Below, in pieces: positions 2,342 to 19,032 of a stretch of DNA of 21,320 nt (position 1 is the first letter of the stretch; every line of letters starts with the position of its first letter). The notes under the pieces were generated by a model. The model was given only the letters and a program-made list of their open reading frames with translations, was not told where the DNA came from and searched no databases. Origin of the DNA: a virus; the IMG/VR virus record IMGVR_UViG_3300048813_000187, positions 1 through 21,320 of that record, one strand, 5' to 3'. The position numbers and the translations under genes are program-made.

Positions 2342-3039
2342 AGTTGCACCTTTCGCGTTCGGATGTTCCTACGTTGAGGCTTGTTGTCGACGGCTTTTAT
2401 CACCGTTGAAGCGCCTTCGGTTCGCTCTTCGTTATTAGTCGCCTGGGAACCGACAGATTGGCTCCCATCCCGTTGCTGGAGATAAGATTCGACGCGGATG
2501 CGATTTGCAAGGCTGCCCAAACCATCTCGGATGAGCTCCGTAACATTTTGTTCGGAGTCAAAGTGTGATTTGCCGGCCCTGACTTCTGCAAGGACGATCT
2601 TGGCAATAGTTATCCCGAGGCGCGGCATTATGTCGGAGATCAACCCATCTGGATTAGCGACTCTCGGGGAAGGCGCGGACGGATCACCTTCGGGCCGGAA
2701 TGTCTCCAATATGTGTTGCACCGCTTTTATCACTTGATCGTAGGCGTACGCGTTTTCCATCCAGAAGTGAGATTGGTGATCGATCCAGAACTGATGGTCA
2801 CGTAAAGGGGAAGCGTAGAACGCAGCCTGCGAGTTGACCTTCTGCACGGCTACGGCGATCAGTTCCGCAATTCCGAACAATTCCTTTGTCTCAAAGAGAT
2901 CAGGCCCCATTTCAAAAGATCGTTTCAGCCGTTCGTCCATTTCTTTATTTACCGAGACGCCATTCTTGTCCGCGGCGGCTTGCAGACGGTCCCTAAGGCT
3001 TTCGTCTGTTCGCAAATTCATCTGTATTCGCTTCGTCAT
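2338..3039 (-). CDS. Ribbon-helix-helix (Arc-type) DNA-binding protein
   Basis: A 233-aa protein whose residues 4-43 (IQMNLRTDESLRDRLQAAAD, then VSVNKEMDERL) match the Arc/MetJ ribbon-helix-helix fold: a short polar beta strand followed by two helices. Such phage proteins bind operators as dimers or tetramers. The rest (about 50-233) is helical and charged, with no family I recognise, and is much longer than plain Arc repressors of 50-90 aa. AGAGG sits before the ATG. It is the first gene of the int operon (ATGA overlap) and diverges from the xis-nusG-like series, which suits a role as switch repressor or int regulator. The repressor role is inferred from position. Confidence 0.75.
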   Translation of the reverse strand: MTKRIQMNLRTDESLRDRLQAAADKNGVSVNKEMDERLKRSFEMGPDLFETKELFGIAELIAVAVQKVNSQAAFYASPLRDHQFWIDHQSHFWMENAYAYDQVIKAVQHILETFRPEGDPSAPSPRVANPDGLISDIMPRLGITIAKIVLAEVRAGKSHFDSEQNVTELIRDGLGSLANRIRVESYLQQRDGSQSVGSQATNNEERTEGASTVIKAVDNKPQRRNIRTRKVQL

Positions 3040-3081
3040 CTGCCGCCTCTCATGCCTGGCGTTTCAATCCCGCAAAAACGA

Positions 3082-3159
3082 GTGCTAGCACATTTTTTAC
3101 GGGACAGCAACGGGCGGGACGAAATGGCACTTGACTGTCTAACTGTTACCATTTAGGCA
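3082..3159. promoter_or_regulatory. Divergent control region between RHH-int and xis genes
   Basis: A perfect 10-bp palindrome GTGCTAGCAC (3082-3091) lies about 45 bp before the RHH start. On the minus strand it covers the likely -10 (TAGCAC, 17 bp after TTGCTG), so a bound repressor would block RHH-int. On the plus strand TTGACT (3131-3136) is a good -35 for the xis side, with a poor -10 (TAGGCA, 17 bp on). CGGGAC is directly repeated at 3100 and 3115. The RHH protein is the natural candidate ligand; this is inference. Confidence 0.4.
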
Positions 3160-3223
3160 TGATGATAGTACTGCGGCTATGTGATTGCGTTCCGCTCCGA
3201 AACCGAGGGTGAAGCACTTCCAC

Positions 3224-3469
3224 ATGACGCGCGCCGCCGAAGATTTAAGCTCGACCTTGAAGGGCTCCGCAAGCGACGCGGGCACGCCCGCGGATCGGCA
3301 GTCTGTCCCTCCCGCGCGTTTGGTAATGTCGGTTCCGGAGGCTGGGTCTGAACTAGGCCTGGGCCGAAATGCGTCGTACGCCGCCGCCGCGCGTGGCGAT
3401 ATCCCAACGATCAGAATAGGCGGGCTGATCAAGGTGCCGGTCGCTGCGTTCTACCGGAAGTTCTCCTGA
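3224..3469 (+). CDS. Excisionase / AlpA-like HTH DNA-binding protein
   Basis: An 81-aa protein from the ATG at 3224 (an in-frame TTG at 3185 would add 13 residues; an ATG at 3328 would leave only the core). The C-terminal part, MSVPEAGSELGLGRNASYAA followed by RGDIPTIRIGGLIKVP, matches the small winged-helix excisionase/AlpA family: a helix-turn-helix entry, an Arg-Gly-Asp-x-Pro turn and a wing. Such proteins bend DNA for excision or control int. The N-terminal 35 residues look unstructured. It is the first gene on the plus strand; its TGA overlaps the next ATG (TGATG), so translation is coupled to the NusG-like gene. Confidence 0.7.
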   Translation: MTRAAEDLSSTLKGSASDAGTPADRQSVPPARLVMSVPEAGSELGLGRNASYAAAARGDIPTIRIGGLIKVPVAAFYRKFS

Positions 3470-4107
3470 TGCTCGCCACCATGCACGAGGCGACTATTGA
3501 TCGCCAGCCGGCGAAGCAGAATTGGTTCGAACCGTCGCCGGTCACGCCACTTCCCGATCTCGACTATTCGGGATTTCCATTTTGGCACTCGCTGTTAGCT
3601 GAGCCCAATCGAGAGCATAAGGCGGCAGAATATCTCAAGCGCGTAAACATTCACGCCTATCTGCCGGAGTTTACAAAACAGCAACGGTGCGGTCGGCCGA
3701 CGCATTATCGCGCTCGCCGTATAGCGGTGATTTCATGCATGCTGTTCGTTCCCGTTGAAATGCTCGCGGTCGATAATCGCGACAAAATCATGGATTGGGC
3801 AGGCCTCCGTTTTGCAAAGCAGCAGCTCGCACGTCCTTTGACCAAAAGTGAAATACAGGAAATCAGGAGCGTGGAAGCGCGGTTGAACATTCGCGCATCC
3901 GAAAAAGCCGAAGATTGCAAAATTGGTCGGCGGGTAAGGCTTAAAAATGGACTGTTGACCGCGTTCCTCGGTGTGGGAACGATTATTGAGGTTGCGGGCG
4001 GCGGCCGAGTGCGCGTTGAGATGGAACAGAAGCTGCTCGGCGGAAAATCCGTTATTTGGGTCTCATGCGCCGATGTGGAAGTGATGCAACCGGAGACCGC
4101 GGCCTAA
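3469..4107 (+). CDS. NusG/RfaH-like transcription (anti)termination factor
   Basis: A 212-aa protein with the NusG layout. Residues about 37-115 are an NGN domain: FWHSLLAEPNREHKAAEYL, then AYLPEF, a basic RARR stretch and VISCMLFVPVEML, matching the Y-x-P and late hydrophobic strand of RfaH-type proteins. Residues about 150-205 are a KOW-like C-terminal domain (CKIGRRVRLKNGLLTAFLGV, ending WVSCADVEV). NusG paralogues bind RNA polymerase at the clamp and often work as operon-specific antiterminators. Its early position, and a strong terminator later at 6882-6927 before the tape measure gene, suit a late-gene antiterminator. Which transcript it acts on is not shown by the sequence. Confidence 0.75.
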   Translation: MLATMHEATIDRQPAKQNWFEPSPVTPLPDLDYSGFPFWHSLLAEPNREHKAAEYLKRVNIHAYLPEFTKQQRCGRPTHYRARRIAVISCMLFVPVEMLAVDNRDKIMDWAGLRFAKQQLARPLTKSEIQEIRSVEARLNIRASEKAEDCKIGRRVRLKNGLLTAFLGVGTIIEVAGGGRVRVEMEQKLLGGKSVIWVSCADVEVMQPETAA

Positions 4108-5296: not shown

Positions 5297-6016
5297 ATGT
5301 CTAAAACTTCGATGCCAAAAAAATCTGCCGAACTTTCCGCGCAGCTCGCCCAGGAGCGCGCCACACAAACCAACGCCAATGCCGAGCACGCGCAGTTGGT
5401 GGCGCAATCTACATCCGTTGTCTGCGAAGGCGTCGAAGCGCTGCACCGGCATCGGCTGCTGATTCAGGATGCCGCCGATCGGTTTGAGGTCGCCCGCGCA
5501 AGGGCAGAAAAGTTAAACGGCCAACTGGCTGAGGCGCAGGAGCGCGAGGCCGCCGCCGACCGCCGCGCCAGATACGACACTTACGTAAAGGGCCTCAAGG
5601 CACGACGTGAGAAATACCGCAGGGATCTCAATTCCGTTTATCAACAGCTATTCGATGCACTAACGGCAGGCAAAGCCGAGCAGGACGAGATTGATGCAAT
5701 CAACATGGATCTGCCGCCTGGCGCCCCCTCTATCGAACACTTCGAGGCTGAGATGCGCCACACACCGGCCGTACCAGAGCGCCAGGAGATCGTCGAAGTG
5801 CAGCGCGCCGTGAACGACGGCCGCGATAGCCCCTGGCGAGTCGGCGCCTTGCCGCCCATGGAGACCGTGAAAGAGACGCGGGTTGTCCATGGCACTCGGG
5901 CGCGGCGGCCGGCGCCGCTTTGGGAGGTCGTGGAATTACCATCGCTCGACCGTTCGGTCGAGATGCTGCGCGTGGCCGGAACGTGGCGACCGCCAGGATC
6001 TGTGATTTCCGGATAA
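5297..6016 (+). CDS. Hypothetical coiled-coil protein, 239 aa
   Basis: The start at 5297 follows AGGAG with 7 nt spacing. Residues 1-130 are rich in Ala, Glu, Gln and Arg with heptads (AELSAQLAQERATQTNANAE; VARARAEKLNGQLAEAQERE), a likely long coiled coil. The C-terminal part (about 150-239) is Pro/Arg-rich and less ordered (ERQEIVEVQRAV..., WEVVELPSLDRSVEMLRVAG). It sits right before the head decoration gene, so a scaffold-like or morphogenesis-helper role is possible, but nothing in the sequence proves it. Confidence 0.65.
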   Translation: MSKTSMPKKSAELSAQLAQERATQTNANAEHAQLVAQSTSVVCEGVEALHRHRLLIQDAADRFEVARARAEKLNGQLAEAQEREAAADRRARYDTYVKGLKARREKYRRDLNSVYQQLFDALTAGKAEQDEIDAINMDLPPGAPSIEHFEAEMRHTPAVPERQEIVEVQRAVNDGRDSPWRVGALPPMETVKETRVVHGTRARRPAPLWEVVELPSLDRSVEMLRVAGTWRPPGSVISG

Positions 6017-6111: not shown

Positions 6112-6804
6112 ATGCTCCTCCAATATCTCAATAGGCCGAAACTTCAATCTGCCGTACTCAAATGGTTTAAGGGCGAGGAATTCAGCTGCGAGCAGGAAAC
6201 CGCTCTCGCGAACAGTGGGTCAGCTTTTTCGCCGCCCGGCTATTTTGATATTGGCACGGTCGTCGCAAAAATTACCAACCCCACACTCACCGTCGCTGCC
6301 GCTGTTGCCGGCGGAGGTAATGCCGGAAATGGCACCGTCGCGCTCGGGAGTCCCGCTTTTTTGGCCAACTCTTTGATCGGCACCTATGAGGTAGTCGCGA
6401 TCGGCGCGCTCGCCTGGGAATTGTACGATCCCTACGGCCGGCTGGTCGGAGTTGCTGCCGATGCGGCCGCCTTCGCCACTCAACTCGCCTTCACAATCAC
6501 CCACGGCAGCACTGCGTTTGTCGCCGGCGATCGTTTTACATTCGCAGTCTCCGTCGCTACCCCTGCGTCTGGCAAAGTCGTTCCGCTCAATCCCTCGGCG
6601 ACCGATGGCTCGCAAAATACGATCGGCGTTGTGTTAAGGCGCGTGAGCGTTGGCACGAGCGATACGCCGATCGTCGTGATCGAGCGCGATGCTGTCCTGC
6701 TTTCTGATGGCCTGATCTGGCCGTCCGGTATCACTACCGATCAGCAAGCGGCAGCCACCGCGCAACTTGCCGCGCTCGATTTGATCGTTCGATCTTCCTC
6801 TTGA
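6112..6804 (+). CDS. Head decoration protein (lambda gpD-like) with inserted domain
   Basis: A 230-aa capsid decoration protein; AGGAG precedes the ATG. The gpD-like core is split: FDIGTVVAKIT (about 45-55) and then, after about 155, GKVVPLNPSATDGSQNTIGV, DTPIVVIERDAVLLSDGLIW, ending with a helix (TDQQAAATAQLAALDLIV). Lambda gpD is only about 110 aa. The extra residues 56-152 (GGGNAGNGTVALGS..., YDPYGRLVG..., FTITHGSTAFVAGDRFTFAV) look like a Gly-rich beta-sandwich domain placed in the loop before the TDGSQ motif, so it should protrude from the capsid. In normal phages this gene sits between the S49 protease and the major capsid gene; here neither is adjacent and no capsid gene is found. Confidence 0.85.
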   Translation: MLLQYLNRPKLQSAVLKWFKGEEFSCEQETALANSGSAFSPPGYFDIGTVVAKITNPTLTVAAAVAGGGNAGNGTVALGSPAFLANSLIGTYEVVAIGALAWELYDPYGRLVGVAADAAAFATQLAFTITHGSTAFVAGDRFTFAVSVATPASGKVVPLNPSATDGSQNTIGVVLRRVSVGTSDTPIVVIERDAVLLSDGLIWPSGITTDQQAAATAQLAALDLIVRSSS

Positions 6805-6881
6805 CCTCAGTTGACGACATCCACGGCGTCTTACGCCGCGTTGGCCAGTGAAACTGCGCGCGTATAGGCGTGGGTGTCGTC

Positions 6882-6927
6882 GGCGATGGCCAGGAGCCGC
6901 GACCTGGCCGTCGCCACTCTTTTTTTT
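6882..6927 (+). terminator. Strong Rho-independent terminator before the tape measure gene
   Basis: A 13-bp stem (GGCGATGGCCAGG pairing with CCTGGCCGTCGCC, one G-U) with an 8-nt loop ends at 6915 and is followed by TCTTTTTTTT. This is the best terminator in the window. It falls between two structural genes and would stop read-through unless an antiterminator, such as the NusG-like protein, acts. The rest of the 152-bp gap holds no gene. Confidence 0.85.
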
Positions 6928-6956
6928 GCACCTTCTTTTTTTGAGAGGCAATCGCA

Positions 6957-9368
6957 ATGCCCAATGTCACATCAAACTTGACCCTCAAGTTGAGCGATCT
7001 CTTGTCGAAGCCGGCGGGCGAAGCCGCGGCTGCGCTCAAGAAGTTTGGTCTGACGGCGCAGGATCTGCAGAAGGCGGCCAAACTCGATCAGCTAAAAGTC
7101 GTACAGGCTGATTTTCAAAAAGTATCGCTCGCCGTCACCAATACAAGCCAGACCGTTAAAGTCCTCACCGAGAGATTGACGGCGGCTAAAAATCCGACCG
7201 CCCAAATGCAAGTGGCGCTTGAACGCGCGCAGCGGGCATCGGCTGCTGCCGGTCAGTCTTTCATTCAGCAATCGGATGCGCTCAAGCTGGCGCAGGCCAG
7301 CCTGCAATCGCTCGGTATTCCGCTCAGTCAGATTGCAACCGAAGAGACGCGGCTGAAGGGTGCCGCACTGGCCGCGACGACGGCGATGGAGCAGCAGGCC
7401 ACAAGGGCGCAGTCGATCGGCTCGCGCATTCGCCGCGGCCTCGGCAGCGCATTCGGCAGTATCGCACCCTTCCTCGGGATGGGGATGGCGGCCGGCGCCT
7501 ATAAGGCGGTGAAAGCCGGCGCCGCGGTCGACAGCTCCGAGACTGGCCTGCGCGCGGCCGGCATATCGGCCAGTGAAATTGACAGCGTCTCTTCAATCGT
7601 GATGGCGCAGCAGGCGCGTTTCCCGCAGCTACCGATCAACGAAATTTTCGACCGTTACAAGGAGGAAAGGTCGATCACCCATAGCCCTGCGGAAGCGCAG
7701 GCAATGCTCCCCGTCATCGCTCAGACGATGGCGGTGTTGAAGACGATGGGCGATGGCTCGACGGCTGGCCTCGGTTTTATGATGAAGGCCGCCCAGGGGC
7801 TTGGCGCGGCGCAGAATCCAGCGCGCCTGACCAGCTTTATGGAGGCGTTCCTCAAGGCCAAGCAAGTCAAGGGCGACCTCATCACGGCCGAGCAGATGTC
7901 TTCTTTCTTCGGTGGTCTCAAGGGATCGGGCGCGCTGCTATCCGATCGCTTCCTGCACACCACGGCGATGTCGCTCGCCGCCGAATTAAAGAGCGGTGGT
8001 AGAGCCGGCAGCGGCATTGATCAAATGATCAGGGAAATTGTTGCTCCTAGTGGAGAGCAGGCTAAGGAATTTGTTCAACTTGGCCTGATGGACCGAAGCG
8101 AGTTCAAACCACGTGCCGGCGGCGGCTTTGGCAGATCTTTCGGGCGCGGCGGTGCCAAGCTTGGAGAGGTTAAGTTTGGCGCTCACGGCACCGGCTGGCA
8201 AGTGGCTCAGACCGATCCTGATACTTGGGTAAAGGAATATTTGCTGCCAGCCTTTATCCAAAGCGGTTTCAAGGATTTGCCGACGCAGCTCTCACTGGTG
8301 GCGAAGATGTTCTCCGGACGATCCGCCGAGATCGTCACAAAATTGATCACGCAAGCCAAGGAATTTGAGGACGAAGCGGAGAAGATGCGGGAGGCCCATG
8401 GCGGCGCAGCCACCGGAGATTATGCAACGGATGCGAAGTTCCAATTAGAGACCTTGGGGACGGCGCTCTATAATTTCGGTACGACTCTGACGAAGCCGGC
8501 GATGGCGCCGGCAGCAGGGATAATGAATTCCATCACGCGCAGCATTGCTGGTTGGTCGGAACGGATTTCAAGCTGGAATAAAGAACATCCGACGCTCGCC
8601 CCGTTCGCTGGGCCTAGCGCGGTCGGCGCTCTAGGTGCGGGCGGCCTTGTATTGAGCTTGGGCCTTTTGCGCAGTTTCTTAGGCTTTGGCTCACTCAAGA
8701 CCTCGGCCGGGCTGCTTAATGTCGCGGCGGGGAATTTGAACGCCGCGGCGTCCAAGCTACTTGTCGGCGGCGGCGGTGCAGCAGTCGGCGCTGCCGAGGG
8801 CGCCGCCATGGCCGGCGGCGGGATGATTGCGAAAAGCCTGATCAAGGGCATTCTCGGCGGCATCGCGACTTACGCCATCGCATATCAAGTTGAGTCCGCG
8901 CTGTATGACGCGCTGGTGCCTGAGAAGACCAAGAAAGAAATCAAGCGGCGCAGCGATGCCATTGATGACATGAAGTATAATCTGATGTCGAAGGCCGAGC
9001 TGCAACGCCGCGCGTTCAATTCCGACCGGCAGCGGCAACGCATCGCGCCCATTGGCGATTTTACGCTCGGCTCCGATCGCGGCTTTCGTCTTGACGCGGG
9101 TCCTAATCTTGCTGGCTTTGACCGCGCGACGGACGCCCAGGCGGCTGGCGTAAAATTTGGCGCTGCATTTCGTCAGGCAGTGGCGACAGAGCTCGATGGC
9201 GCGGTTTCAGATACGCATTCGACCATAGATAAAATCGTCGGGTTGATGACCTTCGGCGCCAGCCCGAACATTACGCCGAGCGCGGCTGGCGGTGGCGGCG
9301 GCGCAACCGGAGGGCTCAACACCAACGGTGTCCATTCTGATGCTGGCGTCTCGCCGGCTTGGCCGTAA
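6957..9368 (+). CDS. Phage tail tape measure protein
   Basis: An 803-aa protein with the make-up of tape measure proteins: helical N-terminus with Ala/Gln/Lys heptads (about 20-140), Gly/Ala-rich hydrophobic stretches (about 165-190, 555-580 and 625-650) that could insert into the host membrane during DNA delivery, and a Gly-rich tail (GGGGGATGG). The middle (200-480) contains the MLPVIAQTMAVLKTMGDGST type of helical region seen in these proteins. GAGAGG precedes the ATG. By the usual 1.5 angstrom per residue rule it would fit a tail near 120 nm. It is preceded by a terminator and followed by the tail hub gene, a usual neighbour, but the chaperone, tube and sheath genes normally upstream are missing. 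Confidence 0.85.
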   Translation: MPNVTSNLTLKLSDLLSKPAGEAAAALKKFGLTAQDLQKAAKLDQLKVVQADFQKVSLAVTNTSQTVKVLTERLTAAKNPTAQMQVALERAQRASAAAGQSFIQQSDALKLAQASLQSLGIPLSQIATEETRLKGAALAATTAMEQQATRAQSIGSRIRRGLGSAFGSIAPFLGMGMAAGAYKAVKAGAAVDSSETGLRAAGISASEIDSVSSIVMAQQARFPQLPINEIFDRYKEERSITHSPAEAQAMLPVIAQTMAVLKTMGDGSTAGLGFMMKAAQGLGAAQNPARLTSFMEAFLKAKQVKGDLITAEQMSSFFGGLKGSGALLSDRFLHTTAMSLAAELKSGGRAGSGIDQMIREIVAPSGEQAKEFVQLGLMDRSEFKPRAGGGFGRSFGRGGAKLGEVKFGAHGTGWQVAQTDPDTWVKEYLLPAFIQSGFKDLPTQLSLVAKMFSGRSAEIVTKLITQAKEFEDEAEKMREAHGGAATGDYATDAKFQLETLGTALYNFGTTLTKPAMAPAAGIMNSITRSIAGWSERISSWNKEHPTLAPFAGPSAVGALGAGGLVLSLGLLRSFLGFGSLKTSAGLLNVAAGNLNAAASKLLVGGGGAAVGAAEGAAMAGGGMIAKSLIKGILGGIATYAIAYQVESALYDALVPEKTKKEIKRRSDAIDDMKYNLMSKAELQRRAFNSDRQRQRIAPIGDFTLGSDRGFRLDAGPNLAGFDRATDAQAAGVKFGAAFRQAVATELDGAVSDTHSTIDKIVGLMTFGASPNITPSAAGGGGGATGGLNTNGVHSDAGVSPAWP

Positions 9369-9417
9369 CCTGCGGGAGCTGATCTTTGAACCAATATTTT
9401 TGGAGGGGTGCGCAGAG

Positions 9418-10560
9418 ATGTTAGATCAGGCGATCTTCCAGATCAGCGTCGGTGGCACCGACGTTACCGAGACGTTCAATCCGATCCTGCAGCAGTTGCA
9501 GGTCGAGGATCATTCCGGTGAGTCGACTGATCACGCCATGGTCACGCTCGCCGACGTAGATGGCGCGATCCTATTGCCGTCCGTCGGCGACAGCGTGAAT
9601 ATCCTGCTCGGTTGGAAGATCGCCGGCGGTCTCACCCAGGTGTTCGACGGCATCGTTGACGAGGTGGCATCACGCGGCAGCCGCGGTGCCGGCCGGCTGC
9701 TGGTGGTCAAGGCACACGGTTTTGATACCGGCGGCAAAGCCAAAGAGCCGCAGCAATTTCACAAGGACAACGCCAGCCTGCAGGATTTTCTGTCGCAGGC
9801 GGCTGGCAATGCCGGTTTGAGTTTCCAGGCGGAGGGCTCGGTCGGCGGCATCCAGAGGCCCTATTGGGTTGCCGGCACCGAGAGTTTCATTCACCTCGGC
9901 CAGCGCATCGCGCATGAAGTCGGCGCCGTGTTCAAGATCGAGGGCACGCAAGCCTATATGTGGCCGCTCAATACGCCGCTCCAAGCCGCCGGCGGTGGCG
10001 ATGGCAGCGTCAATGCGACGTGGGGCCAGGGCAATGACACGGGAAACCTGATCGAATGGGATATTTCGCCGATCGTCGGGCGCCCACAATATGCCCAGAC
10101 GAGTGCGCGCTATTACGATCACACGACGGCAACCTGGAAGGAAGTCACGCAATCGATCGGCGGCATTGGCAGCGATTATGCTAGCGATTACGCCGCGACC
10201 CACACCCATCGCCAGACGCGCGCCGATGCGGGCGAGGCAACCACGACCGCGGCCGCCAATGCGGCGATCTCCACGCGCGAGGCCGGCACCGGCATCGTCA
10301 CTATCGTTGGGCAACCGGCGGCGTTCTGCGAAGGATCCTGCACCGTCAGCGGCGTGCGCGCCGGTGTCGACGGCACCTATCGCATCGCTGGCGTGCGCCA
10401 CGAGCTCAACCGCTCGTCAGGCTTTATCACGCAGCTGGAATTGAAGCAGCCCGGGGGGGGCGCCGGCACAGATCCTCGCCCTGTCGCGCCTAATCTAACT
10501 GGGCCGCCGCCCATAGACAGCGTGCCGGCCGCGATCGATCCCGCTACGCCGCCGACCTGA
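9418..10560 (+). CDS. Tail hub protein, phage late control D (P2 gpD-like)
   Basis: A 380-aa protein; GGAGGGG sits 9 nt before the ATG at 9418. The order matches P2 gpD / T4 gp27-like hubs: an N-terminal beta domain (FQISVGGTDVTETFNPILQQ, DHAMVTLADVDG), then LLGWKIAGGLTQVFDGIVDE, a middle domain with KDNASLQDFLSQAAGNAGLS and HLGQRIAHEVGAVFKIEG, and a C-terminal TGIVTIVGQPAAFCEGSCTV... region ending RHELNRSSGFITQLEL. The final 35 residues are Pro-rich. The hub links tape measure, tube and spike in contractile tails, so its presence implies a myovirus-type ancestor or helper. The spike and baseplate genes that normally follow are absent. Confidence 0.85.
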   Translation: MLDQAIFQISVGGTDVTETFNPILQQLQVEDHSGESTDHAMVTLADVDGAILLPSVGDSVNILLGWKIAGGLTQVFDGIVDEVASRGSRGAGRLLVVKAHGFDTGGKAKEPQQFHKDNASLQDFLSQAAGNAGLSFQAEGSVGGIQRPYWVAGTESFIHLGQRIAHEVGAVFKIEGTQAYMWPLNTPLQAAGGGDGSVNATWGQGNDTGNLIEWDISPIVGRPQYAQTSARYYDHTTATWKEVTQSIGGIGSDYASDYAATHTHRQTRADAGEATTTAAANAAISTREAGTGIVTIVGQPAAFCEGSCTVSGVRAGVDGTYRIAGVRHELNRSSGFITQLELKQPGGGAGTDPRPVAPNLTGPPPIDSVPAAIDPATPPT

Positions 10561-10611
10561 TCGTGGAACGTATCGATAATTCGGTTATCTCAATTTTGGC
10601 GCCAGGCCGCC

Positions 10612-10977
10612 GTGAGCAACATTATGCAGTTTTTCAAAAAGCTGATTTCTCGCCCGAGAAGGCCGCCTGTGCCACAGTTGTCGAGCAGCGACTTTGCCGT
10701 CGCGATCGACACGCTTACTGCCATCACGATTGCGCACCACCGGCTTATCGGCCTCGTCGCCGGCCACCTGCTTGCCCTAACACCACCTGAGCGGCGCCGA
10801 GACTTGATCAATGCCCTATATACCCGCGCTCCTCAGGAAGGTGCACCTAACTTCAAGTGTGGCCTGACCGGGAAGACATTTGAAGAGATCGGCCACGAGG
10901 CAGATGACATCGCAGCGGAACTGATCGACGCCCTCGCGTTGGCTGCCGAAGATGCGGCGCGCGACCCGCGCGGATAA
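10612..10977 (+). CDS. Hypothetical helical protein, 121 aa
   Basis: Starts at GTG 10612 (MSNIMQFFKKLISRPRRPP); an ATG four codons on could also serve. The N-terminus is basic and amphipathic, followed by a helical region with a mildly hydrophobic stretch (ITIAHHRLIGLVAGHLLAL, about 38-56) and an acidic helical C-terminus (IAAELIDALALAAEDAARD). The stop is one base before the ATG of the helicase gene, so it probably belongs to the replication module. Family not recognised; a helicase loader or accessory role is only a guess from position. Confidence 0.6.
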   Translation: MSNIMQFFKKLISRPRRPPVPQLSSSDFAVAIDTLTAITIAHHRLIGLVAGHLLALTPPERRRDLINALYTRAPQEGAPNFKCGLTGKTFEEIGHEADDIAAELIDALALAAEDAARDPRG

Positions 10978-10978
10978 C

Positions 10979-12766
10979 ATGACACCAACGGAAAAAACCA
11001 ATCCAGCCGCTTACCAAGCGGCGTGTCAGCAGATCCTTGCAATAATCGACGCGGCTAAACCGCCGCGCGACCCGACCGAGCTATCTGCAGCTGATGTTCC
11101 AGCCGCAGCCGACAATGTCGTGCCGTTCGCTGCGGCTCCTAGCCGTGTTGGCTCTCGAAAAAAATCCGCCCGGCGGAAGGTTGGCGGCGCGCTGGAACCG
11201 TTGCCCGATGAATTGCCGCCTCTGCCGGAAGCCGTTGATGGCGACGGTTGCAATCTTGATCTTCGGCTTGCTGATCTGCCTTGCACCGATCTCGGCAATG
11301 CGCGGCGTTTTGCGGCGCGCAACAAGAAAAGCCTCCTTTGGTCGAGTGTGCTCGGCTGGCTATGGTGGGACGGCAAGCGCTGGTGCCGCGATGGCGCCGA
11401 CGATCGTGTGCGCATGGCAGAGCATGATTGTGTGCATGCGATCGCGAAAGAGGGGAGCGCGATCAAGGGCACTAAGCGCGATATCATTGTCGGCTATGAG
11501 CGCGACGCCACGCCGATCCGAAAATCCGATAGACTAATGAAATGGGCGGTTGCCTCGCAGGCCGCCGCGAAGATGGCGCCGATCGCGCGTCACGCCGCGC
11601 CCTATCTCGCCATCGACCCGGCCAGGCTCGATGCTGATCCCTTCGTCATCAACACGCTTTCCGGCACGCTCACGGTCGCCAAGACGGCGGATGGTTCCGA
11701 CTACATCAGAATCCGGCCTCACGATCCTGCCGATCTGATCACCAAGATCGCGCCGGTTGAGTTTGATCCGGCGGCGGCGTGTCCGCAGTTCGATAAGTTT
11801 TTTGTTGAGATCCAGAAAGACGCCGATACCCGCGCGTTCCTGCTGCGCTGGCTCGGTTACAACTTAGTGGGCGACACTTCCGAGCAGAAGCTCGCGGTAT
11901 TTTGGGGCAAGGGCCGCAACGGCAAATCGGTGCTGGTCGATACCTGCGCCCACATTGCAGGCGACTACGCCGAGACGATCCCGATCGAAACCTTTCTCGC
12001 GGAAGGCCGCGGCCGCTCCGCCGGCCAGGCGACGCCCGATCTCGCAATCCTGCCGGGCAAACGATCGCTGCGCACGTCCGAGCCATCCAAGGGCGCGAGT
12101 CTCGATGAGGCTTTGATCAAATTGGCGACCGGCGGCGAACCGCTGCAGGCGCGGCACTTAAATCGCGACTATTTCAAATTCTATCCGGTGTTCAAGCTGA
12201 CGATCTCGGGCAACTACCGGCCCAAGATCGGCGGCACAGACGAAGGGATCTGGGGCCGTGTCGTGCTGGTGCCGTTCCTAGAATTTATCCCCCCGGAAAA
12301 GCGCGATCCGCAGCTGACGGCAAAACTGCGCGCGGAAGCGAGCGGCATTCTTAACCGCCTGCTCGATGGCTTACGCGAATGGCTCGACAAAGGCCTTGTG
12401 CCGCCCAAGGAGGTCACTGACGCGACCGCCGAGTATCGGCGCGACAGCGATCAGCTTGGACGCTTCCTGGAAGGCGTGGTGGTCAGGAAAGAGGGTGCGC
12501 GGGTGCAGTCGAGCGTCCTGCTCGCGACTTTCAACGCCTGGGCCAAGGCAACGGGCGGCACCGAATGGAAAGGTCGCGGCCTCGCCAACGCCATGACCGA
12601 GCGTGGCTACAAAAAGGACAAATCGAGCGTGATGTTCTGGCTCGACATCGAGCTCATCAAGATGGTGAGCGACTTCGTCGACGAGCGCGGCGAGCCGTTG
12701 CGGGACACCGACAGTCCCCCGCCGGTGCGCGCTGGGCCGGCCGGCGATGATGAAATCGTGTTTTAA
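10979..12766 (+). CDS. D5/P4-type SF3 replicative helicase (phage primase C-terminal family)
   Basis: A 595-aa protein of the D5 / P4-alpha C-terminal type. Residues 1-100 are low-complexity Pro/Ala. Residues about 105-300 form the D5_N-like region (GWLWWDGKRWCRDGADDRVR, DADPFVINTLSGTLTV). The SF3 core follows: RAFLLRWLGYNLVGDTSEQK, Walker A FWGKGRNGKSVLVD (about 307-320), a B region around LAILPGKRSLRTSEPSKG, and the late motif FKLTISGNYRPKIGGTDEGI. A winged-helix DNA-binding tail follows. There is no obvious primase domain at the N-terminus; the separate CHC2-Toprim gene at 17872 probably supplies primase. The start at 10979 is chosen because it lies one base after the preceding stop; an in-frame ATG at 10952 is possible. 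The iteron region directly downstream is a likely target. Confidence 0.88.
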   Translation: MTPTEKTNPAAYQAACQQILAIIDAAKPPRDPTELSAADVPAAADNVVPFAAAPSRVGSRKKSARRKVGGALEPLPDELPPLPEAVDGDGCNLDLRLADLPCTDLGNARRFAARNKKSLLWSSVLGWLWWDGKRWCRDGADDRVRMAEHDCVHAIAKEGSAIKGTKRDIIVGYERDATPIRKSDRLMKWAVASQAAAKMAPIARHAAPYLAIDPARLDADPFVINTLSGTLTVAKTADGSDYIRIRPHDPADLITKIAPVEFDPAAACPQFDKFFVEIQKDADTRAFLLRWLGYNLVGDTSEQKLAVFWGKGRNGKSVLVDTCAHIAGDYAETIPIETFLAEGRGRSAGQATPDLAILPGKRSLRTSEPSKGASLDEALIKLATGGEPLQARHLNRDYFKFYPVFKLTISGNYRPKIGGTDEGIWGRVVLVPFLEFIPPEKRDPQLTAKLRAEASGILNRLLDGLREWLDKGLVPPKEVTDATAEYRRDSDQLGRFLEGVVVRKEGARVQSSVLLATFNAWAKATGGTEWKGRGLANAMTERGYKKDKSSVMFWLDIELIKMVSDFVDERGEPLRDTDSPPPVRAGPAGDDEIVF

Positions 12767-12779
12767 CGCGATGCCAAAG

Positions 12780-13063
12780 CTCCCAAGCTCCCAACTTTGG
12801 GAGGATTGGGGTGCTGTGCAAGCTACTGATTTTGCTTGCGTTGGGAGGATTAATGGGAGTTGGGAGGATTTTTACATATGAGGACTCATGCGCGCGTGCG
12901 CGCGTGCGCGCGCGCGCACACACATGAGTCCGACTTACACAAAATCCTCCCAAGCTCCCAAATCTGATCGTGAGTTAAGCGAAAGCCTGCGTGGTTATTG
13001 GTTTTTGTGAACGGGAGGGTTGTTTGTGAGTTTCCTCCCATTTCCTCCCAAAGCCGGGAGGAT
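12780..13063. repeat. Iteron-like cluster of TTGGGAG heptamers (putative origin)
   Basis: The 310-bp gap between the helicase and gpZ-like genes has no gene. It is packed with TTGGGAG, often extended to TTGGGAGGAT. Plus-strand copies: 12797, 12841, 12860, and a variant at 12853. Minus-strand (CTCCCAA) copies: 12780, 12788, 12947, 12955, 13045, and a variant at 13035. CGGGAGG variants occur at 13012 and 13055. Copies at 12788 and 12797 form a perfect inverted repeat with a 2-bp gap. Repeats in both orientations next to a P4-type helicase gene resemble the iterons bound by P4 alpha at ori and crr. TerS-binding sites or a promoter control region are alternatives. Confidence 0.65.
12860..12953. 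repeat. 94-bp nested palindrome with Z-DNA-type centre
   Basis: Outer arms TTGGGAGGATTTT (12860-12872) and its exact complement (12941-12953) are each followed inward by 9 unpaired bases, then inner arms GGACTCATG (12882-12890) and CATGAGTCC (12923-12931), and a 32-nt centre of alternating purine-pyrimidine, mainly CG (12891-12922). Both arm pairs share the same centre at 12906.5. Such DNA can extrude a cruciform or form left-handed DNA. The outer arms are themselves iterons, so a protein bound there would be arranged symmetrically. Confidence 0.75.
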
Positions 13064-13076
13064 CGAAAGGTGAAAA

Positions 13077-13643
13077 ATGGAACTGACTATCAAGCTTCAA
13101 GATCAGGCCCTTGTTCGATTTGGCGCTCGGCTCGCGGCGCTGGGCGAGCGCGCCAATATGGCGATGTCGCGCGCGCTCAATCACGAAGGTGCCAAAGCGC
13201 TCACGCAGGTCAAGCGCTCGCTCGCGAAGCAAAGCGGCATGAAATACAGCGATCTTTCGAAGCTCACCCATGCGGTTCCCTCTTCGCCTTCCACATTGAC
13301 CTATCAAATCCGAGTTTCGGGGAAGGAAACTAACATCGCTGCGTTCGGTGGAAGGCAGACTGCCGCCGGCGTCAGCGCCTCACCGTGGGGGGAACGCCAC
13401 GTTTTCGCTGGTACCTTTATGGTTTACGCGCACGCCGGCGAACAAGGGTTGAGCGGAATCGTTGCCGAAGGCAGCGCGCTCGCGTTCAAGCGGGTCGGCA
13501 AGGGCAGACTACCGATCCACCCGCTCTATGGTCCCAACATCGGTCGCGAGGTCCTCAAAGGTGAGACGCGCGAAGTATTCGAAAGAGCGGCGCCGGCCGT
13601 GATCGAGCGACTGGGCCATGAGATCCAGCGATTACTGAAGTAA
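13077..13643 (+). CDS. Prophage minor tail protein Z-like (tail completion) protein
   Basis: A 188-aa protein; AAAGG precedes the ATG by 6 nt. It matches the lambda-gpZ-like (GPZ) family: N-terminal helical part (LGERANMAMSRALNHEGAKA, TQVKRSLAKQSGMKYSDLSK), a beta-rich middle (LTYQIRVSGKETNIAAFGGR) and the conserved end LPIHPLYGPNIGREVLKGET followed by a helix. GpZ-type proteins finish the tail end that joins the head. In complete phages it sits between head and tail modules; here it stands alone between the putative origin and terminase. The family call rests mainly on the C-terminal motif. Confidence 0.7.
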   Translation: MELTIKLQDQALVRFGARLAALGERANMAMSRALNHEGAKALTQVKRSLAKQSGMKYSDLSKLTHAVPSSPSTLTYQIRVSGKETNIAAFGGRQTAAGVSASPWGERHVFAGTFMVYAHAGEQGLSGIVAEGSALAFKRVGKGRLPIHPLYGPNIGREVLKGETREVFERAAPAVIERLGHEIQRLLK

Positions 13644-13800
13644 TGACCGCGCTGATTATTAGGAAGTCCCGCCCACGGTCACAGGTCGACCCATCCGTTC
13701 ACGGGTCCTTCCTACGGGGGGTGGTACGCGCGGTGCCGTTGCAGCCCGGAAAAACTCTAGCCGCGCAGAATCAGAACGTACTGAATTCATTAAAGAAACG
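13644..13800. other. Non-coding gap before terS; possible cos region
   Basis: No gene is visible. GACCC (13688-13692) and GGGTC (13703-13707) form an inverted repeat around 10 bp, beside a GGTCGACC palindrome (13685-13692), and a G6 run follows at 13716. In lambda-like phages with GpA terminase, cos lies just upstream of the small-terminase gene, so this is where a cos site would be expected. I cannot identify the nicking site itself. Confidence 0.25.
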
Positions 13801-14460
13801 ATGACCTCTCGCCCTGAAATCGCTTCTGGTGACGCTGCATTGTGGCTCACGATCACCGAACTGGCCGCGCGCCAGGGCGTTGGCGCGCCGGCAATCTCGA
13901 TGCGCGTGAAAGCGCTGGTGGCGGATGGCCAGCTGCAGACGCGAAAGGGCCATGGACGCCGCAAGCTTGTCAATTTGGTGCAATTTCTGGCCGCCATAGG
14001 CGAGAGCGGCGATGCCGCGCGTGAGATGCCTCAGGAAACGCGCGAGGCGGTGCCGGAGAGTGATGTTGCGGCTTCGCCGAGCTATCGAGAGGCCCAAATC
14101 CGCAAGGCCCAGGCCGAGGCTGCGCTGCGCGAATACGACCTACGCCAAAAGCAAGGCGAGCTGGTGGAGATCGCCGAGCTCGAGCCGGCCGCAGCGGCGT
14201 GTGCCGAGGCGATTGTCGCCGCGATAGAACGCCTGCCGGCGCATGCCGCCGAGATGGCGGCTGGTGTCGGGCACGATGGTGAGCGCGGGGCGCGCACTCA
14301 GTATCGCCAGGACGCCCGCCACCTTCGCATGGCCATCATAGATGCATTCGATCGAATGCTCATAAAATTTCCGGCTCTCGCAGGCCGCGTGCTCACCACC
14401 ATGGGCCAAGAAATTGTTCCTGCCTGGGGCGACCTTGACCCCGCCGACCGCGAAATATGA
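13801..14460 (+). CDS. Terminase small subunit (Nu1-like)
   Basis: A 219-aa DNA-packaging recognition subunit. Residues about 14-65 (ALWLTITELAARQGVGAPAI, then MRVKALVADGQLQTRKGHGR) form a winged helix-turn-helix for cos binding. Residues about 95-125 are a charged helix (YREAQIRKAQAEAALREYDL), typical of Nu1-like proteins for oligomer and TerL contact, and the C-terminal 60 residues are helical. The ATGA overlap with the large-subunit gene and the usual S-L order support the call. The ribosome binding site is weak (AAAGAAA). It should choose which DNA is packaged, so its cos specificity decides whether the element packages itself or uses a helper's system. Confidence 0.8.
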   Translation: MTSRPEIASGDAALWLTITELAARQGVGAPAISMRVKALVADGQLQTRKGHGRRKLVNLVQFLAAIGESGDAAREMPQETREAVPESDVAASPSYREAQIRKAQAEAALREYDLRQKQGELVEIAELEPAAAACAEAIVAAIERLPAHAAEMAAGVGHDGERGARTQYRQDARHLRMAIIDAFDRMLIKFPALAGRVLTTMGQEIVPAWGDLDPADREI

Positions 14461-16490
14461 ACACAATTTTGCAATCCGTTTGCGAGGCGCTGCTTCGCGT
14501 CATGCGGCCGATTATCCAGCCGCCGGCGGAAATCACGCCCTCGCAGTGGGCCGCCGCAAATCTGATTGTGCCGGATGGCCCGCACGCCGGCGAGAAGTGG
14601 GACCCGGCGCTTACGCCGTACATCGTTGAACCTTTGGACCAAATGGGCCCGGCTTCCTCTGTCAACCGGCAGGTCATTCGCAAGGCCGCGCAGACAGGTT
14701 TTTCGATTATGGCAATTTGCGGAGTTGGTCATTCGATCGCTTGCGACCCGCAGGGTGGTGTGCTGCTGGTACAGCCGACACAGGACGCCCTTGATAAATT
14801 CATAAGAGACAAGCTGACTCCAACAATTGAAGCAACCACAGCGCTAAAGGCGAAAGTGGCGTCGCAGATCGCTCGGTCGGGCGCAGGCTCGACCACCTAC
14901 AACAAAAGGTATCCTGGCGGATCACTGCAGCTGGTGATCGCTAATTCGGCGGCTGGCTTGCGCTCGATCACAAAGAAGAGGCGCATTAAGGATGAGGCCT
15001 CGGAATACCCGCACGACCTGGATGGACAGGGCTCGCCGCACGCGATGATCGAGGCGCGCGGCGAGGCCTTCCTCGCTTCAGGAGATTGGAAAGAGACGAA
15101 CATCTCGACGCCTACCATCGTGGGCGAGTGCTACATCAGCGAACAGTTTGAGCGCGGGGACAAGCGTTATTGGCATGTCGATTGCCCCGGTTGCGGCGAG
15201 CCTTTCGTCTTTCACTTTGATCTAAATTTCCAATTTAATGACACCTATCCGTACAAAGCGCACTACGTCGCGCCGTGCTGCGGGACCGTAATCGAAGCCC
15301 TTCAGAAAAACTCCCTGGTGCGCGCCGGCAGCCGGCATGCACCGCCCCGCGACGATGGTTTGCCGAACGGCTGGATTGCGACCGCGCCGGGGCCCGGCAA
15401 GTTTCCAAGTTACCATTTCGACACTCTTTCCAGCCCCTTCGTACCGTGGGATGCCGTTGCAGAGCGCTGGATAAATGTGCAGGCGCTCAATGATCAATCG
15501 GAGCTCAAGACATTCTGGAATTTGACGCGCGGCGAAGCTTATGAGGTGCGCGGGGACACACCCGATTATTTGCGCCTGATCGAGCGGCGTGAAGAATATC
15601 CGCGCGGCCGCATTCCCCCGGGCCCGCTGTTGCTCACGATCGCGGCGGACGTGCAGATGCGCGGGATTTATGTGGAAGTCGTCGCGCATGCACATGACCG
15701 TCAAAGCTGGGTGATTCACGCCGATTATCTCGACGGTGCCACCACCGCGGCCGACCAGGGTGCATTCGCCGCTCTCTCTGAGCTCTGGCATCGGGCCTGG
15801 CCGGACGGCTACGGCAACGAGTGGCGAGCTGATGAATTCGGAATCGATAGCGGCTATAGGACCGATATTGTTTACGAGTGGACCCGGCGGCATCCGGGTT
15901 CGAAGGCGCTCAAAGGCGTAGACGGTTGGGGTAAGGTCCCGCTCGGCGTCGCGGTAGACGTTGACATTTCCTACGCTGGCCGGCGGATGAAGGGCGGCGC
16001 CAAGGTGCGCGCGGTCGGGACTTGGGTGATGAAATCGGCTTTCTACGCCGATCTCGCGCTCACGGGATCGTCGGATGGATCGGCCGTGACGTATCCGCCC
16101 GGCTATTGCCATTTTGGCGCCTTCCTCGATGAAAACTACTTCAAGCAGCTCACGTCTGAATACCTCGAAGAGGAAACTTACCGCGGCCGGCCGCGCAAAG
16201 TCTGGAAGCTGGGCAACAACCGTGAGAATCATTTTCTTGATGCGCGTGTCTACAATCGTGCGCTCGCAAACGCTTATCTGACGACATACACGGCCGACGA
16301 TTGGGCACGCGCGGCTAAGGAGCGTGGTATTCCCGAAGACATGCAGAAGCCGGACTTATTCGCGCCGCGCGGCTTCACCCCGGGGATACCGCCGTCGTCG
16401 CCGCCGTCGGATGTCGACCGTTTTGCCGCCGGCACTACGGCAGATGGCGATCCATTCGATCGGCTCGCTGAATTAAACCGGGGCATCTAA
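14457..16490 (+). CDS. Terminase large subunit, lambda GpA family
   Basis: A 677-aa packaging motor and nuclease, close to lambda gpA (641 aa). The ATPase region has the deviant Walker A segment RKAAQTGFS (75-83, Lys76), an adenine-binding QWAAANLIVPD-type start (30-40) and a Walker B-like RRIKDEASEY (D179, E180). Two Cys pairs (CPGCG near 243 and PCCG near 277) make a small zinc site. The C-terminal nuclease part has acidic motifs TIAADVQMRGIYVEVV and DEFGIDSGYRTDIVYEW, and ends with the NRENHFLDARVYNRALA region of the family. Pro-rich tail. In complete phages W and portal genes follow; here the S49 protease gene follows after 59 bp. Confidence 0.93.
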   Translation: MNTILQSVCEALLRVMRPIIQPPAEITPSQWAAANLIVPDGPHAGEKWDPALTPYIVEPLDQMGPASSVNRQVIRKAAQTGFSIMAICGVGHSIACDPQGGVLLVQPTQDALDKFIRDKLTPTIEATTALKAKVASQIARSGAGSTTYNKRYPGGSLQLVIANSAAGLRSITKKRRIKDEASEYPHDLDGQGSPHAMIEARGEAFLASGDWKETNISTPTIVGECYISEQFERGDKRYWHVDCPGCGEPFVFHFDLNFQFNDTYPYKAHYVAPCCGTVIEALQKNSLVRAGSRHAPPRDDGLPNGWIATAPGPGKFPSYHFDTLSSPFVPWDAVAERWINVQALNDQSELKTFWNLTRGEAYEVRGDTPDYLRLIERREEYPRGRIPPGPLLLTIAADVQMRGIYVEVVAHAHDRQSWVIHADYLDGATTAADQGAFAALSELWHRAWPDGYGNEWRADEFGIDSGYRTDIVYEWTRRHPGSKALKGVDGWGKVPLGVAVDVDISYAGRRMKGGAKVRAVGTWVMKSAFYADLALTGSSDGSAVTYPPGYCHFGAFLDENYFKQLTSEYLEEETYRGRPRKVWKLGNNRENHFLDARVYNRALANAYLTTYTADDWARAAKERGIPEDMQKPDLFAPRGFTPGIPPSSPPSDVDRFAAGTTADGDPFDRLAELNRGI

Positions 16491-16549
16491 AGCGCGCACG
16501 GTTTGCCGCGCCCCGCTCACATTGCGCTCATCATTGGAAGGAAAACCAC

Positions 16550-17467
16550 ATGGCTATTTTGTTGCCGCACATCGCCGCGCGCATCTTCGATACACCGCTG
16601 ATGATCGACGCCGGCAAGGCCGCCTCAATCATCGTCGGCATCGGTGGCCGTTTGGTCGACGGCGGAATGATGATCGAGGACGTCGAGCAAATACAGCACG
16701 TCGCCTTTTCCGGCGGCCGGCCGTCGATGGGCAGCCTCGGCGATCCGCTCGGCAACCAGATCGAAGCCAACGGCAATGGGCATCGGATGCTGATGAAAAT
16801 TGGCTCGACCGCGATTATTCCGATCGAGGGTACGCTCGTGCACAAAGGCAAGTGGCTCGGGACGTCGTCCGGCGAGACCTCTTATGAGGGCCTGCAGGCG
16901 CAGGTGCAGCGTGCACGGCGCGATCCTTCCGTGCAGGCCGTAGTGTTCGAGGTGGATAGCTACGGCGGCGAAGTCTCCGGTGCTTTCGATACCGCCGCGA
17001 TGATCGCACAGCTATCGGCGGAAAAACCGACGCTCGCGATCCTGACGGATTTTGCCTATTCGGCTGGCTACCTGCTGGCGTCCGCTACAAGGCAGATCGT
17101 GTTGCCCGAGACAGGCGGCGTCGGTTCGATCGGCGTTATCGCCTTGCATGCCGACTTTTCGGCGCAGTTGGAAAAGAAAGGCATCAAGGTGACGGTGATC
17201 TCGTCCGGCGCGCACAAGGCCGACGGGCATCCGGCCGCGCCGATATCGGCCGGTGTGCTTGCGCGCGCGCAAGCCAGCGTCGATGCCACGCGCGATCTGT
17301 TCGCCGCCGCCGTTGGGCAATATCGGGGCGGCCGCCTTGATAAGGCCGCCGCACTCAAGACCGAGGCAATGACCTATCGCGGCAAGGACGCGATTGCCGC
17401 CAGGCTGGCCGATGGCGTCGGCCGGCCATCAGAAATGTTTGACCGTTTCGTTTCGCACTTTCGCTAG
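16550..17467 (+). CDS. S49-family head maturation protease (lambda gpC-like)
   Basis: A 305-aa SppA-type serine protease; GGAAGGA precedes the ATG. Motifs: IIPIEGTLVHKG (89-100), VFEVDSYGGEVSG (132-144, oxyanion region), catalytic Ser171 in DFAYSAGYLLAS, VGSIGVIALHADFS (191-204) and catalytic Lys223 in SSGAHKADGHP. In lambda-like phages it trims scaffold and portal within the prohead. Lambda gpC is 439 aa because its C-terminus contains the Nu3 scaffold; this one stops right after the protease domain, so no scaffold is fused. Its natural substrates (scaffold, portal, capsid) are not encoded here, which is odd for an intact gene. Confidence 0.92.
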   Translation: MAILLPHIAARIFDTPLMIDAGKAASIIVGIGGRLVDGGMMIEDVEQIQHVAFSGGRPSMGSLGDPLGNQIEANGNGHRMLMKIGSTAIIPIEGTLVHKGKWLGTSSGETSYEGLQAQVQRARRDPSVQAVVFEVDSYGGEVSGAFDTAAMIAQLSAEKPTLAILTDFAYSAGYLLASATRQIVLPETGGVGSIGVIALHADFSAQLEKKGIKVTVISSGAHKADGHPAAPISAGVLARAQASVDATRDLFAAAVGQYRGGRLDKAAALKTEAMTYRGKDAIAARLADGVGRPSEMFDRFVSHFR

Positions 17468-17491: not shown

Positions 17492-17875
17492 ATGACCTCG
17501 CTCGCCTCGGACGAAATTGAGGACACCGAACCGCAAGCTGTTGCTGATGTCGCACGCCCAGCCATCTGCAGGGCCGCGCTCAGTGACTACATGATGATCT
17601 GCGAACGCTGTGGGTTGGACTGGCCTGCCGGAACGGCAGGACCAAAATGCAGCCCGATCACCTTCGAGGCCTTGCACCGCCGGATGCTCTCGGAAGTCAC
17701 GCGCGCGGAGGTTTCACTCGTTTCCGTCCTGGGTCTGCAGGGCCGTGGCGTGCCGACCGATGGCGGTCGCAGGGCGCGTCGGCGCCTCGCCGAGCTCAAT
17801 GCCGTGCTGCGTATGGTGGAGCGGATCACCGGAAACGCCGGCCTCAAGGCTATGTTGAGCGGAAAGAAAGCATGA
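17492..17875 (+). CDS. Hypothetical Cys-containing protein linked to the primase, 127 aa
   Basis: A 127-aa protein with a possible half zinc ribbon: CERCGLDWPAGTAGPKC (about 38-54) has a CxxC pair and one further Cys, with another Cys at 26. The C-terminal half is basic and helical (DGGRRARRRLAELNAVLRMV). Its stop overlaps the primase ATG (ATGA), so it is probably translated with the primase, and DNA binding is plausible. No good ribosome binding site is seen. Family not recognised. Confidence 0.65.
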   Translation: MTSLASDEIEDTEPQAVADVARPAICRAALSDYMMICERCGLDWPAGTAGPKCSPITFEALHRRMLSEVTRAEVSLVSVLGLQGRGVPTDGGRRARRRLAELNAVLRMVERITGNAGLKAMLSGKKA

Positions 17876-19032
17876 GCCGTTTCTCCGACGCCCAGCTTGA
17901 CGACATCAAGGCGCGCAACCCGTGCGACCAGGTCGCGGCACAATGGGTGACGCTGCGCCGGCATGGCAAGAAGATGATGGGGCCGTGCCCGCTGCATTCG
18001 CCGGATCCGCACGCCAAGGATTCCACCGGCTTCGAATGCGATGCCGAAGGTTGGGTTTGCGCCTGCTGTTCGGATGGCGGCGACGTCATCAAGCTGATGA
18101 TGAAGCGCGAGGGCATCGAATTCACCGCCGCGGTCGAGCGGTTGGGCGGTGCGCGCGAAATCGATCCGGTCGAAGATGCGAAGGCCGAGGCGGCGCGCGC
18201 TGTGCGCAAGATCGAGCGCGAGGCCGAGCACAATACCTGGCGCGATCGCGAGCGCGGCCGCGCCTGGGATCTGCTGAAATATACCCGGCCGATCGGGGGC
18301 ACGCTCGCCGAGCGCTATCTGCGCGAGATCCGCGGACTCGATGTTCCTGCCGACGTACAGCTGTGGTTTGACCCGGCAGCGCGGCTCTATGTCGAGGACC
18401 GGCCGAAATTCCGCCTGGTGCACAGCGGCCCGGCGATGCTGGCCAAGATCCAGCGCGATGGCCGCTTCGCCGGCGTGCATACCACCTGGCTGGACCTGGC
18501 GCGGCCCAAGGGCAAAGCGCGCATCGTCGACAGCAAGAGTGGTGCCGAACTGCCATCCAAGAAGGTTCGCGGCTCCAAGAAAGGCGGCCACATCGATCTG
18601 ACCGGCTGCAAGGATGATCCGCGCGAGCTGGTGCTAGGCGAGGGCATCGAGAAGGTGCTGGCGATCTGGACGGCCTACGCCGCCAGTGGCCGCGATCTCA
18701 CACATACCGCGTTCTGGACATCGGTCGACCTCGGCAATCTCGCGGGCAAGGCTAGTAGCTCGGTCCCTCACCCTTCTATGAAGACCGACAAGGGGCGCGT
18801 CCCGCGCGTGCCAGGGCCGGACCCCAATCTCGACAGCCCGGCGATCGCCATCCCCGACACGGTCGAGCGCCTGGTGCTGCTCGGGGATTCCACCTCGGAC
18901 CCGTTCACGACGCAATGTGTCATGGCGCGGGCGGCCAAGCGCTATGCTCGCGAGGGCCGCACCGTGGTGTGCGCCTGGGCGCCGGCGGCCAATGATTTCG
19001 ACGATCTGTTGCGTGAGGCGAAGGCCGAGTGA
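17872..19032 (+). CDS. CHC2 zinc-finger and Toprim DNA primase
   Basis: A 386-aa DnaG-type phage primase, starting at the ATG that overlaps the previous stop. The CHC2 finger is C39-P-L-H42 and C63-x-C65-C66 (GPCPLHSP; WVCACCSDGGDVIKLMM). A charged linker helix follows (AKAEAARAVRKIEREAEHN). A gp4/P4-like partial-primase region comes next (RYLREIRGLDVP, AMLAKIQRDGRFAGVHTTWL) and a Toprim domain with ELVLGEGIEKVLA (about 252-264) and VLLGDSTSDP (about 334-343). It has no helicase domain. Paired with the SF3 helicase at 10979 it could make a complete primase-helicase set from two genes almost 7 kb apart, unusual since such genes are normally side by side. Confidence 0.9.
   Translation: MSRFSDAQLDDIKARNPCDQVAAQWVTLRRHGKKMMGPCPLHSPDPHAKDSTGFECDAEGWVCACCSDGGDVIKLMMKREGIEFTAAVERLGGAREIDPVEDAKAEAARAVRKIEREAEHNTWRDRERGRAWDLLKYTRPIGGTLAERYLREIRGLDVPADVQLWFDPAARLYVEDRPKFRLVHSGPAMLAKIQRDGRFAGVHTTWLDLARPKGKARIVDSKSGAELPSKKVRGSKKGGHIDLTGCKDDPRELVLGEGIEKVLAIWTAYAASGRDLTHTAFWTSVDLGNLAGKASSSVPHPSMKTDKGRVPRVPGPDPNLDSPAIAIPDTVERLVLLGDSTSDPFTTQCVMARAAKRYAREGRTVVCAWAPAANDFDDLLREAKAE

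Follow-up and report, generated by a model that had tools for sequence, protein, structure and literature searches.

The repeat field at positions 12780–13060 of the window (a whole IMG/VR virus record, 21,320 bp) is very probably the replication origin of the element, recognised by the helicase encoded by the gene that stops 14 bp upstream. The preliminary description of this DNA had suggested that the field is the element's own origin. A comparison that took in more than 150 related viruses supports this reading at the level of sequence: helicase and repeats are linked across genomes, the field has a common layout, helicase and field were exchanged together, and the repeat word covaries with the helicase.

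Repeat field and helicase gene in the window

The field begins 14 bp past the helicase stop (12766) and ends 16 bp short of the next gene (13077), which encodes a tail completion/Neck1 protein. No credible gene was found between 12766 and 13077, in agreement with the earlier statement that the heptamers occupy gene-free DNA directly downstream of the helicase. The exact heptamer TTGGGAG was found nine times in a search of the whole window, eight copies being located within 12780–13051 (three on the plus strand and five on the minus strand); the remaining copy is isolated at 5920, and the window contains no second cluster. The chance expectation for the whole window is 2.14 copies (standard deviation 1.45), and at least nine copies were seen in 0 of 100 shuffles; for the 282 bp of the field, about 0.03 copies are expected by chance versus the eight observed. 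With relaxed words, the field holds 10 TGGGAG and 12 GGGAG boxes. The dense field of heptamers on both strands is thus real, and within the element the word is not common elsewhere, eight of nine copies being confined to the field. The claim that many copies are extended holds for four copies of the decamer TTGGGAGGAT (three on the plus strand, one on the minus strand), all of them in the field and none elsewhere in the record, although "many" then amounts to half of the eight exact heptamers.

The boxes are ordered rather than scattered. The outer left block (12780–12806) comprises two minus-strand boxes (12780–12786 and 12788–12794) and one plus-strand box (12797–12806). It is followed by the inner left block (12841–12869), with three plus-strand boxes at 12841–12850, 12854–12859 (TGGGAG) and 12860–12869, then by a central palindrome (12882–12931), and then by the inner right block (12944–12961), with two minus-strand boxes at 12944–12953 and 12955–12961. 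The outer right group (13012–13060) consists of GGGAGG at 13013 (plus), TGGGAG at 13035 (minus), TTGGGAG at 13045–13051 (minus) and GGGAGG at 13056 (plus). The palindrome has two 23-nt arms, 83% complementary, separated by a 4-nt loop, and contains a 40-bp tract of alternating purines and pyrimidines. The preliminary description gave the repeats only and missed both the order of the blocks and the alternating centre.

The gene preceding the field (10979–12766, plus strand, frame open from 10952) encodes a putative initiator helicase of superfamily SF3 that belongs to the P4 family and has no primase domain of its own. The protein matches TIGR01613 (phage/plasmid primase, P4 family) with 218 bits against a cut-off of 108.7, PF08706 (D5_N) with an E-value of 2e-22 and 80.3 bits against a cut-off of 22.4, and phrog_1156 with an E-value of 2e-109; since the curated cut-offs are exceeded, its earlier designation as P4-alpha-like is correct at the family level. 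The folds closest to the whole helicase are SF3 primase-helicases of large DNA viruses, a likeness that is silent on the iterons. DSSP analysis of an AlphaFold2 model (mean pLDDT 82.5) places a C-terminal winged helix at residues 501–559 (12479–12655, plus strand), composed of a strand (501–510), two helices (511–525 and 532–541) and two wing strands (546–548 and 552–559). The wing codons from K548 (12620–12622) to V551 (12629–12631) covary with the iteron sequence, as described below. A sequence search with the C-terminal domain alone matched no solved structure. D5_N is the only domain found on the helicase. The primase is encoded separately, by a DnaG-type gene (CHC2 zinc finger, DUF7146 and Toprim) at 17647–19032 on the plus strand with a likely start near 17872, whose product is expected to be the partner of the helicase. 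In two related loci (L005 and L006), a primase homologue is encoded directly upstream of the helicase.

Linkage of helicase and repeats and their joint exchange

The array pattern was searched for in 2.9 million viral contigs by DNA sequence only, with a threshold of at least five boxes per 350 bp. Among the 33 dense arrays obtained, 32 lie directly 3′ of a helicase of the same family as that of the window, some of these helicases being only 25–26% identical; two loci were confirmed on the full contig. A second scan started from the helicase and required one 7-mer to occur at least five times in the 400 bp after its stop codon. A field was detected 3′ of the gene in 65 of 77 distinct loci and inside the gene in none of the 77; in the other 12 loci, no field was detectable in these 400 bp. 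Related helicase genes do carry repeats directly 3′. Of the refuting outcomes named in the preliminary description, the two examined here (a heptamer equally common elsewhere, judged within the element, and related helicase genes lacking the repeats) thus both turned out in favour of the origin reading. A further set of 53 helicases, all below 97% identity to those of the earlier sets and many from named genomes including Bradyrhizobium, Tardiphaga, Methylobacterium and Sphingomonas, yielded a 3′ field in 44 cases (44/53 versus 0). An initial search of genome contigs with a single helicase protein gave no match.

The fields were found on plasmids as well as in phages and prophages, for the most part from Alphaproteobacteria. 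Natural plasmids with both helicase and field exist; one is NZ_CP089299 of M. currus, in which no phage structural gene is annotated and the single annotated replication gene adjoins the field. Across 82 loci, 25 families are represented by the gene after the field, which argues that the field goes with the helicase. These data also bear on a role in transcription control, whereby the boxes would bind a repressor or activator governing the following late operon. Such a role would suit the location of the field at the junction of the helicase and morphogenesis genes. It is nevertheless highly improbable and we reject it, because the field has neither a sigma-70 promoter match nor a terminator match, the following gene is so variable, the repeat word tracks the helicase, and the cassette exchanged between close relatives contains no other gene.

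This exchange is seen between the window and its close relative L007. The two are 97.3% identical over 8730–11078 and 93.9% identical over 13066–16409, but in between they differ in the helicase (47% amino acid identity) and in the field. The exchanged replication cassette (11079–13065), with flanks 94–97% identical in L007, comprises the helicase from about residue 34 to its end and the entire field, so that its right-hand border falls at the outer end of the field. The repeats thus moved with the helicase gene, one of the checks proposed in the preliminary description.

The same comparison addresses the suggestion that the repeats form a cos or pac site or an array bound by the small terminase subunit TerS. 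The field lies 740 bp before terS, and the field of Rhodobacter phage RcapNL adjoins an annotated cos end. The window and L007, however, have near-identical TerS and TerL (within the flank of 93.9% nucleotide identity) together with different helicases and repeats. In another relative, L264, the primase and terminase genes of the window are kept at 82–84% nucleotide identity, whereas the helicase is replaced by a DUF5906/VapE-like protein with its own field of GGTCCAGG repeats. Such fields also occur on plasmids without an annotated terminase. Because both L007 and L264 show helicase and repeats changed under kept terminase genes, the repeats, as judged from these genomes, follow the helicase and not TerS; a terminase-binding or packaging site is contradicted and hardly credible.

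Several individual loci deserve mention. In L264, the phage backbone of the window is combined at 1170–3210 with the GGTCCAGG field and a GCGCGCGCGCG centre. In RcapNL (L067), the field directly beside the cos end is at 3700–4002 and consists of AGGGACG repeats. The sole array of the DNA-only scan without an adjoining helicase (L040, also L290) is a complete GGGAG field at 1658–2180, directly after which comes a second field built on another word (TTCGAGGGTTT); the 17.8-kb contig has no helicase of the window's family. This is perhaps an orphan double origin of a helicase-less or defective element. The contig of L054 (G006), which also has no helicase of this family, contains four direct TGGGAG boxes at 14683–14732, three of them at 11-bp steps.

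Conserved layout and covariation with the helicase wing

Across the loci the field follows a conserved plan of forward repeats, a centre of about 73 bp with a long alternating purine/pyrimidine tract, and reverse repeats. Summed over loci, the boxes 50–100 bp past the helicase stop are 105 on the plus and 5 on the minus strand, and those 150–200 bp past the stop are 8 on the plus and 138 on the minus strand. A clear inverted (head-to-head) pair is present in 64 loci, with a median inner gap of 73.5 bp. The longest alternating run falls inside this gap in 61 of the 64, at a median position of 0.49 of the gap; its mean length is 17.2 bp versus 7.6 bp in shuffles, the run of the window having 40 bp. 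The AT fraction of the centre is 0.33–0.46 over most of its length and climbs to 0.57–0.65 only over the final 20 bp adjoining the right block.

The alternating tract is kept beside unrelated repeat words, namely AGGGACG in RcapNL, GGTCTGACGG in AcaML1 and GGTCCAGG in L264; in the M. currus plasmid (GCGAGGG) and a Tritonibacter plasmid (GGCTTGA) the alternating runs have only 9 bp. Since it persists beside unrelated words, the tract is probably a structural element rather than a specific binding site. A stable central hairpin was considered as a general feature and rejected: the DNA hairpin z-score is −4.75 in the window, but its median over the 64 loci is −0.80. In most loci the centre is no more stable as a hairpin than its shuffled versions, so that the conserved property is the alternating tract and not a stable stem.

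The repeat words vary by clade (GGGAGG, GGAAGG, GCAAGG, GGGACG and others) and track the helicase tree, with 23 changes versus 41.2 in shuffled data (0 of 200 shuffles). About six or seven switches between GGGAG and GGAAG are placed on this tree. Among all helicase columns, position 551 best separates the two words (78 of 80 helicases in the first set), and glycine is found there in all 28 helicases with GGAAG. Position 548 is second by information, and both positions belong to the wing. When applied to new loci, a rule based on residue 551 alone was correct in 40 of 41 cases, almost equal to the prediction from the nearest-neighbour helicase (39 of 41). For helicases whose nearest relative has the other word, residue 551 gave the right word in 9 of 10 cases in the first set and in both cases among the new loci (11 of 12 in total). 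With the C-terminal domain left out of the tree, residue 551 changes in the same direction in 3.9 of 5 independent pairs and never in the opposite one; significance at 0.05 is out of reach of the tree-controlled sign test, as there are only five independent switches that are well supported.

Helicases with GCAAGG share E548 (N in L117) together with G551. A two-residue rule (551 and 548), fitted post hoc, scored 79 of 80 in the first set and 34 of 41 in the new loci, and was withdrawn in favour of residue 551 alone. The covariation of wing residues with the repeat word points to direct binding of the repeats by the helicase.

Proposed working and relation to known systems

Based on this covariation and on the precedents of P4 alpha and Cch2, we infer that the helicase contacts each TTGGGAGGAT-type box through its C-terminal winged helix, wing residues 548–551 reading the variable bases. 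Hexamer loading, duplex opening and bidirectional replication are suggested by the symmetry of the field. As the two inner blocks face each other, two hexamers could assemble head to head, flanking the centre of about 75 bp. The alternating purine/pyrimidine palindrome with its AT-rich borders would then be the place of duplex distortion or opening; the helicases would unwind outwards, with priming by the DnaG-type primase that is encoded separately at 17.6–19.0 kb. Helicase and origin would constitute one exchangeable cassette, so that origin specificity would be inherited as a unit. Cumulative GC skew, calculated for two complete circular plasmid relatives with a field, has its minima and maxima elsewhere and no turn at the field, and so lends no support to an origin there.

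Phage P4 (NC_001609) offers one close comparison. Its helicase alpha belongs to the same NCBIfam family as that of the window and binds repeats with a winged helix (PMC4234260). The P4 crr site, like the field, has short boxes in both orientations directly 3′ of alpha, and after the strand labels are flipped its box order (minus, plus, plus, gap, minus, minus) agrees with that of the field. In contrast to the window, primase and helicase are united in one protein in P4, the boxes there read GGTGAACA, the gap is AT-rich, and a second, distant ori is present. The two helicases are 26% identical over the ATPase core, and the relation does not reach the C-terminal domain. The comparison with P4 in the preliminary description is thus sound with respect to the family and to iterons 3′ of the gene, but the position corresponds to P4 crr and not to the distant ori. 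Because the P4 counterpart is crr and the mapped P4 ori is 4.7 kb away from it, the field might make up just one part of the origin.

A rival reading is that the field is a crr-like auxiliary site, where helicase binding regulates or helps initiation (by copy number control or looping) and replication starts elsewhere. P4 possesses both ori and crr, with crr being the one next to alpha, and L005 and L006 have two or three additional GGGAG boxes close to the beginning of the helicase gene (5862–5951 and 6143–6226, respectively), possibly a second binding site for autoregulation. We consider an auxiliary site unlikely: outside its field the window has one isolated heptamer, only 2 of 72 loci have a repeat field within the 400 bp that precede the helicase frame, and in phage-inducible chromosomal islands (PICIs) the DNA 3′ of rep is an origin in its own right and supports plasmid replication (PMC6092414).

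The field can also be compared with the PICI/SaPI plan of Gram-positive and E. coli PICIs, in which the origin is located immediately 3′ of rep and has two iteron sets around an AT-rich region, a layout called unique to PICIs (PMC6092414). The candidate origins described here share the position directly 3′ of the initiator gene and the two iteron sets flanking a centre. They differ in the centre, which is GC-rich with alternating purines and pyrimidines and AT-rich borders, and in their occurrence in prophages, phages and plasmids.

Partial parallels exist in other systems. The initiator helicase Cch2 of SCCmec uses its C-terminal domain to bind direct repeats that lie shortly after the cch2 gene (PMC7581432), as we propose for the window helicase, but Cch2 represents another helicase lineage, with three AAGTG repeats and a CCPol-MP primase-polymerase. 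In the PLE satellites of Vibrio cholerae, the DNA-binding domain of RepA covaries with the ori, and the two are swapped together as a module (PMC8263062), similar to the covariation and exchange reported here; RepA is, however, a RepA_N initiator and not an SF3 helicase, and its iterons are semi-palindromic and about 30 bp long. The crenarchaeal plasmid pRN1 likewise has its origin 3′ of the gene for an SF3 helicase with a C-terminal winged helix (ORF904; PMC4234260), but this origin is one large stem-loop rather than iterons.

A description of this origin class was not found among the open-access papers searched, which is weak evidence of novelty. We tentatively suggest a large, so far undescribed class of mobile-element origins that combines head-to-head iterons, a GC-rich alternating opening element, a readable wing code and cassette exchange, though this broader proposal may well not hold. 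If it is true, the opening element may form Z-DNA or a cruciform, and the wing code would read V/T/S551 for GGGAG, G551 for GGAAG and E548 for GCAAGG, which would allow the origin sequence to be predicted from the helicase. Phages could then swap cassettes to change compatibility or to escape defences that target the origin. An alternating tract that serves as the place of DNA opening would be an unusual melting site. The layout once called unique to PICI satellites extends, with a different centre, to prophages, phages and plasmids. In practice, sequence by itself could place the origin in many alphaproteobacterial phages and plasmids that are as yet uncharacterised (Rhizobiales, Sphingomonadales and Rhodobacterales), and with origin specificity tied to a few wing residues, the compatibility and swapping of replication cassettes becomes directly testable.

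The remaining gene content of the window includes a decoration protein, tape measure, hub, neck, TerS, TerL and an S49 protease at 6112–17467, where portal and major capsid genes were not recognised. The gene order is unusual, with the helicase cassette within the late region; L007 confirms the order around the helicase. The element is possibly a defective prophage or a satellite. A tRNA-Ser(tga), the only match in an Rfam search of the window, is located beside a tyrosine integrase on the minus strand at 1010–2341, likely an attachment site. The gene at 3469–4107 has a weak match to the phage transcription antiterminator family phrog_6386, and a protein resembling its product follows the field in L005 (7999–8673) and in many other loci.
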